From a virus, in IMG/VR virus record IMGVR_UViG_3300011013_000059, positions 1 through 29,188 of that record: a DNA stretch of 29,188 bases. One strand, 5' to 3'. A model generated the notes under the pieces. That model was not told the DNA's origin and did not search any database. It worked only from the letters and a program-made list of their open reading frames with translations. The translations under genes and the position numbers were made by a program. Of this stretch, positions 19,648 to 29,087 are shown in pieces; position 1 is the stretch's first letter; each line of letters begins with the position of its first letter.

Positions 19648-20366
19648 TTGTTATATGCAAACTACATTATCGGTTAAAATAAAGTAGTTTGTTTTATATC
19701 CTTACTTCTTTGTATTCCTAAATAAGTTTCAAATATAGTCCTACCAGCTTCATAGTCTACAAGGTTACGAGCCATTTTTTGAACTGGTTGTTCTCCTTTG
19801 TATTTGTAAAAATCAAAATCGTGAAACTTACACCATTGCTTTACCTCATTTTCTCCAGCTCCAATTTTAGGGGCTTTTCTATCACTCAAGTTTCCCGGTA
19901 GTTTAAAATTACACCAATATAAATGCCTATGTCTTTGTTGACCTACAATCAAAGGCGTATAATATGGTATAACATTTTCAATAACAAACCCACCTTTAAA
20001 CCTTGCATCTTCTCCTTTTGAAACTGTTTGAAGCATAATTATCTCTTCATAAAGTTTCATGTCCGGATATTTTGTTTCCACTCTAGTATTATATCCCCTG
20101 GCTCTCGAATGAGTAGGACAAGGAGGTGAAGCCCAAATAAAATCAAACTCTTTGTAATGGTCTAATAAATATTGGTGAGCATCTGCAACAATTACCTTAT
20201 CATTTGGGAATCGTTCTTGATATAACCTAGCAGCTTCTGGGTCTAACTCAACAGCTGTAACTTCAATATCTTCTTTTACTTCGTTCCACTTGTAGCGGTT
20301 ACCACCCAAACAAGCGTATAAATTTAATATCTTCATTTTTGTATCTTTATCGTAAGCATATAACAA
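19648..20366 (-). mobile_element. Methyltransferase cassette bounded by perfect 11-bp inverted repeats
   Basis: TTGTTATATGC at 19648-19658 is exactly inverted as GCATATAACAA at 20356-20366, enclosing only the methyltransferase gene. The right-hand copy is part of an attC-like hairpin (20356-20409). In integrons a cassette carries matching start (GTTRRRY) and end (RYYYAAC) boxes, which is what is seen here: GTTATATGC and GCATATAAC. A second inverted repeat, CAAACTAC 19658-19665 and GTAGTTTG 19684-19691, straddles the stop codon. No second half-site follows on the 19.6 kb side, so either the last site is truncated or the cassette entered a non-attC target. Confidence 0.6.
19674..20336 (-). CDS. 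Orphan DNA cytosine-5 methyltransferase
   Basis: ATG at 20336 (MKILNLYACLGGNRYKWNEV) is the likely start, since an in-frame extension upstream would cross the attC-like site. Motif I is NLYACLGGNR, motif II/III EVTAVELDPEAARLYQERFP, and motif IV ASPPCPTHSRARGYN with the catalytic cysteine. Motif VI is VIENVIPYY and motif VIII QQRHRHLYW. At 220 residues it is short for the family because the target-recognition region is reduced. No restriction enzyme gene is nearby, so it probably protects phage DNA or alters expression. Its gene is enclosed by inverted repeats as a stand-alone cassette. Confidence 0.85.
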   Translation of the reverse strand: MKILNLYACLGGNRYKWNEVKEDIEVTAVELDPEAARLYQERFPNDKVIVADAHQYLLDHYKEFDFIWASPPCPTHSRARGYNTRVETKYPDMKLYEEIIMLQTVSKGEDARFKGGFVIENVIPYYTPLIVGQQRHRHLYWCNFKLPGNLSDRKAPKIGAGENEVKQWCKFHDFDFYKYKGEQPVQKMARNLVDYEAGRTIFETYLGIQRSKDIKQTTLF

Positions 20367-20409
20367 GGTATAAAGTGCATTAAAACGCACCTTATACAAT
20401 GCGTTGTAG
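20356..20409 (-). other. attC-like recombination site C
   Basis: On the minus strand, CTACAAC (20409-20403) and GTTATATGC (20364-20356) flank a stem of 11 pairs including one G-T. The two arms, 20397-20387 and 20378-20368, enclose the loop GTTTTAAT (20386-20379). The AAC/GTT ends, a 5-nt and a 3-nt unpaired spacer, and the long stem follow the layout of integron attC sites. The wobble pair forms only on the minus strand. Confidence 0.6.
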
Positions 20410-20418
20410 GCAATATTG

Positions 20419-20655
20419 CTATTTACCTCTTCTCTTAAATGGCTTACCGCAACCGCAAGTCCAAACATTGTCTCCAAGAGTAGGTTTATCGCAATCGCAA
20501 TACTGTTCGCTTTGCCCCACAACACTGCATAAAGCTAATTGCTTTTTAATATCTATAAATTCATTTAGTCTTTTTTGCTGAGTTTCTGTTATCCCTTCAT
20601 AGTTTTGAGAATGGGTTAATTTTTTTATTTCTAAATCTAAATGTTCTGTTTTCAT
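20419..20655 (-). CDS. Small cysteine-rich cassette protein (78 aa)
   Basis: ATG at 20655 (MKTEHLDLEIKKLTHSQNYE) is preferred to a TTG 12 codons upstream. A helical N-terminal half is followed by CSVVGQSEQYCDCDKPTLGD and NVWTCGCGKPFKRRGK. The C.C...CGC arrangement looks like a small zinc-binding knuckle, and the end is basic. The gene lies between attC-like sites D and C, so it looks like the payload of one cassette. A similar C-terminal cysteine cluster occurs in the 74-residue protein of the other island. Function is unknown. Confidence 0.55.
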   Translation of the reverse strand: MKTEHLDLEIKKLTHSQNYEGITETQQKRLNEFIDIKKQLALCSVVGQSEQYCDCDKPTLGDNVWTCGCGKPFKRRGK

Positions 20656-20751
20656 TTGTCTTTTATTTATTAAGTTATTGTTTAAGTTCAAAGTTTAGTG
20701 CGCGGCTTACTTGCCATACACGGTAGCGTTGTGTCGTAATACAAGTACATA

Positions 20752-20881
20752 CGCACAACAATAAATATAAGTAATGGGGTGCGATACTTAGGAGATATGG
20801 GCAGTACTCCATACTCTTAGCTGTCTTCATCCTTAGTATCTTTCTAGAATACCCCACTACTCATATTCTTTGCCGTTAGAG
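20752..20881 (-). other. Long attC-like hairpin, site D
   Basis: On the minus strand, CTCTAAC (20881-20875) and GTTGTGCG (20759-20752) bound a long hairpin. The first stem of 17 pairs (20867-20851 with 20780-20764) includes two G-T pairs that exist only on this strand. The second stem of 11 positions with one mismatch (20840-20830 with 20793-20783) follows after unpaired segments. The total, about 130 nt, is like the long attC sites of chromosomal integrons. The conserved CGTTTTAATGCAC lies just outside it (20893-20881). Confidence 0.55.
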
Positions 20882-20910
20882 TGCATTAAAACGTCAGTTT
20901 ACACAGGTCG

Positions 20911-28495: not shown

Positions 28496-28526
28496 TTTGT
28501 TTTATTATAAATAATATTTATATTTG
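28496..28526 (+). promoter_or_regulatory. Promoter of the plus-strand island
   Basis: TTTG (28496-28499) and TATATTTG (28519-28526) are exactly 19 bp apart. The predicted start near 28533 leaves only about 3 nt before ATG 28536, so the first gene could be read from a leaderless transcript or from the in-frame ATG at 28557. Confidence 0.75.
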
Positions 28527-28535
28527 CTTAACGTA

Positions 28536-28760
28536 ATGAGTAAAAAACGTAACGATATGAAAGATAAAATATTTGAAGTGGCTAAGAACCACACAGAAAA
28601 CGAAGAAACCGCAATGCAACTCACAAATGAGTTATGTGTTTTACTTGGTGTTATAAAGAAAAGCGAACAGTTAACTTTTAATTGTGAATGGTGTGAAGAT
28701 ACGGGAGTAATGATTACGGGAATGGATTGTACTTGCGATAAAGCACCAAGCAAAAGTTAA
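28536..28760 (+). CDS. Small cysteine-cluster cassette protein (74 aa)
   Basis: ATG at 28536 (MSKKRNDMKDKIFEVAKNHT) is chosen; ATG 28557 is an alternative. The helical N-terminal half (ENEETAMQLTNELCVLLGVI) leads into LTFNCEWCEDTGVMITGMDC and TCDK, a CxxC...CxC zinc-knuckle-like cluster similar to half of a DnaJ zinc repeat. It has its own strong promoter and is followed 4 bp later by attC-like site A. It is probably a moron gene of unknown function. Confidence 0.6.
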   Translation: MSKKRNDMKDKIFEVAKNHTENEETAMQLTNELCVLLGVIKKSEQLTFNCEWCEDTGVMITGMDCTCDKAPSKS

Positions 28761-28764
28761 TTGT

Positions 28765-28817
28765 TTATAACGGTTTGGCTAAAGCATCGTTTTAATGTGC
28801 TTTAGGTGGTGTTGTGG
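28765..28817 (+). other. attC-like recombination site A
   Basis: TTATAAC (28765-28771) and GTTGTGG (28811-28817) flank a stem CTAAAGCA (28779-28786) with TGCTTTAG (28798-28805); the loop contains CGTTTTAATG. AAC/GTT ends, unpaired spacers and a stem follow the attC layout. TTATAAC has its exact complement GTTATAA not here but at the far end of site B. Confidence 0.55.
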
Positions 28818-28851
28818 TGAGTACGGATTATTAAGAACTAAAATTAATATT

Positions 28852-28998
28852 ATGAAAAAATACAAAATAGCTGATAAATATTTAAACATTGTTGCCAGAT
28901 ATGCAATGAATACGAAGTTGGATATTAGAGGTGTTTATACAAAAGAAGAATGGAACAAATCTGGTTTTAAGGACACTATTTTAGAAGAAGTGATTTAG
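28852..28998 (+). CDS. Small cassette protein (48 aa)
   Basis: ATG at 28852 (MKKYKIADKYLNIVARYAMN) is preferred to an upstream in-frame ATG within the cassette boundary. The 48 residues are basic and helical at first, then TKLDIRGVYTKEEWNKSGFK, and end acidic. It is enclosed between sites A and B, 239 bp apart by the predicted crossover points, so it is the only payload of one cassette. No family is recognised. Confidence 0.5.
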   Translation: MKKYKIADKYLNIVARYAMNTKLDIRGVYTKEEWNKSGFKDTILEEVI

Positions 28999-29004
28999 TA
29001 TTCA

Positions 29005-29056
29005 CTACAACACCAAGACAAGCACCGTTTTAATGGTGACTTGTCAACTGTTATAA
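29005..29056 (+). other. attC-like recombination site B
   Basis: CTACAAC (29005-29011) and GTTATAA (29050-29056) flank a 10-bp stem. GACAAGCACC (29017-29026) pairs with GGTG and CTTGTC (29035-29038, 29040-29045), with a single unpaired A at 29039 and loop GTTTTAAT. An extrahelical base in an otherwise perfect stem is typical of attC. A mini-hairpin GCC-GTTTTAAT-GGC follows at 29058-29071. Confidence 0.6.
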
Positions 29057-29087
29057 AGCCGTTTTAATGGCGTATTTTCCGACATAA

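Follow-up and report, generated by a model that had tools for sequence, protein, structure and literature searches.

Near one end of a viral record of 29,188 nucleotides (IMG/VR IMGVR_UViG_3300011013_000059; this whole stretch is called the window below), two hairpins that resemble the attC sites of integrons enclose a short ORF, which raises the question of whether a gene cassette entered this phage by integron-type recombination and, if so, where the ends of that cassette lie. The initial annotation, made from the sequence alone, had proposed such an event and a 239-bp cassette at 28812–29050. The described features are confirmed, and integron-type recombination is supported by (i) the complementarity of the cassette ends, (ii) covariation, (iii) a pair of empty and filled phage loci, and (iv) the recombination published for one phage P12002L site. 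The finding is real and was mostly right in kind, but the boundaries probably require revision and the system as a whole departs further from the usual than had been read.

The end boxes were located correctly: TTATAAC (28765–28771) and GTTGTGG (28811–28817) in site A, and CTACAAC (29005–29011) and GTTATAA (29050–29056) in site B. The outer boxes are exact complements (7/7) and the inner 13-mers match at 11 of 13 positions, both as originally described; with random AAC/GTT anchors from the same window, matching of 8/10 between flanking pairs has a P of 0.0008 and matching of 5/5 a P of 0.0016. When read on the minus strand, site A is CCACAAC-ACCAC-CTAAAGCA-loop-TGCTTTAG-CCAAACC-GTTATAA and site B is TTATAAC-AGTT-GACAAG..-loop-..CTTGTC-TTGGT-GTTGTAG. 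Both hairpins are more stable than their shuffles and have the loop CGTTTTAATG in common, which is present in five copies in the window (0.1 expected). The type of hairpin found at site B is followed by a mini-hairpin also in L007, L146, L154, L166, L175, and L180, and an array end made of the mini-hairpin and a T-rich stretch recurs in L007, L135, and L137. A search of viral contigs returned no relatives of ORF2, which lies between the two sites (Table 1).

Table 1. Features of the window.
Feature	Position	Strand	Remarks
Cytosine methyltransferase cassette	19651..20403	+	gene on minus strand, 19674-20336, preceded by site 20358-20409
Third attC-like (full) site	20358..20409	+	model R1 57.8 bits
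Partial attC-like hairpin	20875..20905	+	model R1 15.9 bits, E 0.13
Island absent from near-identical phage contig L130	28486..29085	.	2 nt replace 600 bp
Bacteroidota-type promoter-like TTTG-N19-TATATTTG, just before first cassette box	28496..28526	+	pattern match; putative function
Site 0, attC-like, loop holds 5′ half of ORF1	28530..28652	-	AAC 28530-28532, GTT 28650-28652; L boxes GAGTAAAA / TTTTACTT
Cassette 1 (239 bp)	28532..28770	-	attC orientation minus, gene on plus strand; start GTTATAAA / end TTTATAAC complementary
ORF1, chimeric small protein	28536..28760	+	N-module MSKK..VLLG, Val codon GTT 28650, C-module IKKSEQ..
Site A, attC-like hairpin	28765..28817	-	CCACAAC..CATTAAAACG..GTTATAA; model R1 65.1 bits; fold z -3.8
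Cassette 2 (240 bp), hairpin A + ORF2	28771..29010	-	preferred, AA|C to AA|C; end complementarity 11/13
Alternative cassette of the initial annotation	28812..29050	+	G|TT to G|TT; end complementarity fits equally
ORF2	28852..28998	+	48 aa; fits no known family
Site B, attC-like hairpin, array-terminal type	29005..29056	-	model R1 37.4 bits; fold z -2.9
Mini-hairpin GCC-GTTTTAAT-GGC, then T-rich stretch	29058..29071	+	array end; terminator-like

Sites A and B belong to a family with the architecture AAC–stem–CATTAAAACG loop–stem–GTT. A search with one degenerate pattern, which on the bacterial side spanned 84,980 species of all phyla, found this family in 27 stretches of viral contigs and in 67 bacterial stretches, all of the latter being Bacteroidota by title (Flavobacteriales, Cytophagales, Saprospiria). 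Two sequenced phages carry it as well. The loop belonged to the search pattern and the variable part of the stem did not; in the stem of the aligned sites, 90% of cells are paired, double changes number 94 (shuffles, 25), and covariation scores 0.277 (shuffles, 0.057). Like attC, these sites are imperfect hairpins with an L″/L′ stem that is conserved in structure and not in sequence. All 75 aligned sites have the AAC...GTT core (the R″ and R′ boxes) without variation, having themselves been selected by that core. The strict box RYYYAAC fits eight of the 36 phage sites and one of the 39 bacterial sites, GTTRRRY fits four and three, and the looser RYNYAAC fits 15 and 17, respectively. That so few sites fit the strict 7-nt consensus counts against our best explanation, although a P12002L site of this family is functional and recombination may not demand a strict fit. 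Known sites were overlooked by a strict generic attC finder, and a relaxed version was used. A covariance model (R1) built on the same 75 sites (36 phage and 39 bacterial, sites A and B included) matched 20 of 296 sampled Bacteroidota genomes. A keyword search of the literature returned no publication on the loop motif, nor any that describes these flavobacterial integrons.

What pairs in an integron array is the start of a cassette and the end of that same cassette, rather than the two halves of a linear site. Across 29 pairs of adjacent sites, the start and end of the enclosed cassette pair at 4.6 of 8 positions on average; the corresponding values are 2.6 for the two halves of one site and 2.5 when flanks are taken at random. 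A pairing of 7/8, expected at about 0.5% (0.46%), is reached by 10 of these 29 pairs; the pair in the window reaches 6/8, and some of the non-complementary pairs enclose an undetected site. Taken over these pairs, the segments between the sites show the end complementarity of integron gene cassettes.

The initial annotation had called for a search of related phages for cassette-free loci. Among related phage contigs, one lacks the whole island and another lacks a homologue of cassette 1; the precise box-to-box case concerns this homologue and not cassette 2 itself. The contig L130 aligns to the window on the left of the island with 93.8% identity over 3745 bp and on the right with 95.1% over 103 bp, and the island that it lacks contains the promoter-like sequence (a pattern that the window matches five times, counting both strands), two cassettes, and the terminal mini-hairpin. 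The left edge of the island (28486) is not at a box, which counts against our best explanation, and the whole platform may therefore have been gained or lost in some other way. In the second case, a 280-bp insert, a homologue of cassette 1 whose front half is common with ORF1, is present in L133/L132 and absent from L176, and the flanks are 99.3% and 99.8% identical. Deletion of the L133 insert from the C of TTTAAC to the AA of GGCTAAC restores the empty site of L176 exactly over 200 bp. The empty site is at TAAC and its right end carries no hairpin; inside these 4 bp, all crossover positions are equivalent in sequence. By this comparison, an entire cassette has been gained or lost precisely, box to box, at TAAC between near-identical phages.

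Where in the site the gene-moving crossover takes place is addressed by several lines of evidence. Both neighboring genes run along CGTTTTAATG at 33 phage sites (33 ++, 0 −−) and against it at 55 bacterial sites (0 ++, 55 −−). Phage genes are thus opposite to the hairpin, and if the hairpin sets the crossover as it does in integrons, the junction would be AA|C with the hairpin at the 5′ end of the gene. Furthermore, phage pairs that share an upstream module have hairpins of 0.43–0.81 identity, mostly below the baseline of 0.68, whereas hairpin identity is higher (0.66–1.0) in pairs with a common downstream part, and the array-terminal type of hairpin, to which site B belongs, precedes the mini-hairpin in several phages with differing upstream modules. 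The analysis of HSP ends is by itself ambiguous because all hairpins resemble each other. Considering that (i) the hairpin travels with the downstream part, (ii) the methyltransferase cassette carries no hairpin at its 3′ end, and (iii) the L133/L132 insert is bounded as described above, the sequences favor AA|C as the more likely gene-moving crossover, giving cassettes 28532–28770 and 28771–29010. Hairpin A would then probably be the 5′ end of the ORF2 cassette and hairpin B its downstream flank. The initial annotation, which overlooked that ORF1 is itself a cassette, was probably off by one hairpin.

The foremost alternative is the same integron system with the earlier boundaries, i.e., with a G|TT crossover in the orientation of the gene and a hairpin at the 3′ end of the cassette. 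It would preserve the classical layout of a gene followed by its attC, it explains the ends equally well by complementarity, and the chimera junctions of related phages, described below, are exactly at G|TT. We nevertheless consider it rather unlikely, since it leaves the hairpin unshared by loci with the same upstream module, the methyltransferase cassette devoid of a 3′ hairpin, the empty site at TAAC with no hairpin on its right, and the conserved orientation of the hairpin reversed relative to chromosomal arrays.

ORF1 displays a different kind of junction. Over the 60 nt that end at GTTA, its N-module matches L132, L134, and L137 with 92–98% identity, and beyond GTTA identity falls to 27–35%; its C-module is 90–98% identical to L135 and L136 after the GTT and 30–35% before it. 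By these alignments, ORF1 is a chimera, the halves of which are found with other partners and are joined in frame at the same GTT. Additional loci with this pattern were collected by scans with the N-module and with VSQQREL, the conserved beginning of a different back half; in 10 pairs the front is common and the back differs, and in 12 listed pairs the reverse holds, two of these 12 being contig-end artefacts. The box at the start of each back half is the complement of the one at its end (e.g., GTTAGCCACA and TTGTGGCTAAC), and the stop codon is often inside the end box. The front halves resemble attC loops: an AAC box precedes the start codon, a GTT marks the junction, and the leader pairs with the last front-half codons to make a stem (e.g., AAC-GTATAT-GGTTAAGGTTAG with CAATTAACTTTAACC-GAT-GTT). 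Spacings of 4–6 and 1–3 nt are found in 20 of 36 such genes; the mean stem score is 18.9 compared to 13.4 for swapped partners, and there are compensatory stem variants, such as GTGTAACAATTG with CAATTATTGTTACAC in L174. This test omitted the GC-rich loci that match the SQQREL pattern (L144, L147, L149, L155, L157, L168, L170, L172, and L178); these loci look unrelated and have zero attC matches.

The corresponding element of ORF1, site 0, has the spacing and stem of those 20 composite genes. Its global single-stranded DNA fold is not better than that of shuffles, which counts against our best explanation, as does the requirement for two crossover points, G|TT at chimera junctions and AA|C at whole-gene junctions. 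Classical integrons use one. We suggest that exchange at the second box (G|TT) could proceed through use of the other DNA strand. Two observations concern similar genes: L141–L186 comprise a large family of small phage proteins that have in common the motif DVSQQREL, whose DNA sequence (GTTAGCCAACAACGTGAACTGTTA) is itself conserved, and in which front and back halves are exchangeable, and a small ORF at 20419–20691 (minus strand) in the window looks like another front/back chimera (..LALCSV|VGQSEQYCDCDK.., start GTTGTGGGGCAA, end TTGCCTACAAC).

Ordinary phage mosaicism, that is, homologous or illegitimate recombination at conserved hairpins and boxes with no site-specific recombinase, would agree with the use of short homology by phage recombinases, with the ~24 nt that SQQREL modules have in common at their junction, and with the lack of an integrase in the phage fragments searched. 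It is improbable in view of the ORF1-type junctions, where the homology is limited to GTTA (4–7 nt), the paired covariation of cassette ends across unrelated cassettes, and the site-specific recombination published for a P12002L site (PMC9892861). Vertically inherited terminators (named by the initial annotation as part of what would overturn it) or RNA elements resembling attC are very improbable even though attC can serve as weak terminators and the mini-hairpin at 29058–29071 is terminator-like, because sites A and B, unlike the mini-hairpin, do not look like terminators and have no T-tract, the Rfam scan gave zero matches, R boxes covary between neighboring sites and not within one, and gain or loss between L133 and L176 is precise.

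The second group of sites in the window carries a recognizable gene. The start of the cytosine methyltransferase cassette, GTTATATGC, predicted an end box GCATATAAC after the stop codon, and this box was found at 19650–19658 on the minus strand. Among 75 scanned genes adjoining phage sites, there were 14 matches to DNA modification families (six N6_N4_Mtase, four cytosine methylase, two Mom, one MT-A70, and one N6_Mtase), where one protein may match more than one family. DNA modification cargo in phage cassettes was likewise noted by Qi et al. (PMC9892861). Genes common to phage and bacterial cassettes were absent among the loci sampled, which counts against our best explanation.

With sites A and B 240 bp apart and no integrase among the window ORFs examined in this 29-kb, possibly incomplete record, the island has two attC-like sites within a few kb in the manner of a CALIN. 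Most likely it is a small integrase-free integron-type array of a Bacteroidota phage, for which we propose a recombinase of the host. An integrase of the host type was likewise absent from the 86 phage fragments searched, and this too counts against our best explanation.

Chromosomal arrays have the classical layout, with the genes upstream of the sites and each gene followed by its attC. The Pontibacter fetidus locus (L112) starts with the integrase, continues with a putative attI (G|TTATGTGTC), and ends with four cassettes and four attC, of which the last alone has the CATTAAAACG loop. An integrase lies close to attC in eight loci and is co-oriented with the array in seven (P. fetidus, Tenacibaculum sp. 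SG-28 in two copies, Tenacibaculum MAR_2009_124, Rufibacter, G153, and G130); it is divergent in G045, and several further copies have a contig end within a few kb. Relatives of this integrase occur in 90 of the 296 sampled Bacteroidota genomes: 14 of the 20 that bear sites and 76 of the other 276 (p 0.0002). The protein fits the IntI and XerA families about equally and stays under both cut-offs (192–204 bits against TIGR02249, cut-off 265; 204–209 bits over the full length of the XerA/XerC-type NF040815, cut-off 220). Between two matched stretches, in the region of the IntI-specific insert, it is ~43 residues shorter than VchIntIA (2A3V). As it does not display the IntI-specific domain near patch III, we do not file it as IntI. 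Unlike XerA/XerC-type recombinases, it adjoins attC arrays, and some copies have an N-terminal extra of up to ~200 amino acids. We infer that a recombinase of this kind acts on the phage sites. In the Tenacibaculum sp. SG-28 genome, which has at least 19 attC matches, two integrase genes that are 92% identical are each followed by a cassette array (L110, L111).

Two published systems are close to this one. Qi et al. 2023 (PMC9892861) report, as one of 17 assorted phage CALINs, an integrase-free attC cluster in Polaribacter phage P12002L, one attC of which recombined with IntI1 at G|TT and on the bottom strand only. By BLAST, P12002L (L002) carries sites of the present family, and it resembles the window in this, in having no integrase, and in DNA methyltransferase cargo, whereas the main text of that paper does not mention a conserved loop, a host integron, antisense genes, coding loops, or chimeras. 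The sedentary chromosomal integrons of Vibrio and Treponema have attC arrays with complementary cassette ends, as here, and the Treponema intI is transcribed toward its array (PMC3607928), i.e., co-oriented. In contrast to these, the Bacteroidota arrays adjoin a recombinase without the IntI-specific insert, and many of their attC have the conserved CATTAAAACG loop, attC loops usually being variable (PMC8352920). A complete integron is already known from the Bacteroidetes, in Salinibacter (PMC9024848). As the IntI-specific domain is a defining feature and is required by published integron detection (PMC9668308), the Bacteroidota lineage would be missed.

Combining these findings, we propose, with a probability of about 0.5, a flavobacterial phage integron-type system in which a Bacteroidota recombinase without the IntI domain, acting at the two boxes, either moves whole genes or splices protein halves in frame and so gives rise to families of small chimeric phage proteins, the genes being antisense and starting in attC loops. 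In our best explanation, the enzyme, a tyrosine recombinase of the host with kinship to both IntI and XerA, would recombine single-stranded phage DNA folded at the hairpins. Phage genes lie antisense to attC, each starting at or inside its own site, so that a phage cassette would have the form C-hairpin-GTT-gene-AA. Where the loop holds the 5′ half of a gene, a G|TT exchange would join a new 3′ half in frame and create chimeras such as ORF1. DNA modification, the most recognizable cargo, would shield phage DNA from host restriction. Such a system would extend the integron-like lineages to one more, in a phylum of major importance in the sea, and would connect phages and hosts via one class of recombination site. 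It would also give phages a route to exchange methyltransferases that counter restriction, and proteins a site-specific mechanism of domain shuffling.

Other members of the site family vary in arrangement and number. Hairpins with the same loop and the reversed box order, GTT...AAC, lie directly upstream of attC sites in four loci (L006:6681-, L011:4554+, L014:3916-, and L146). L011 and L027 are parts of one 71-kb viral contig, in which the covariance model identifies ~20 attC-like sites, an array much longer than that of the window.
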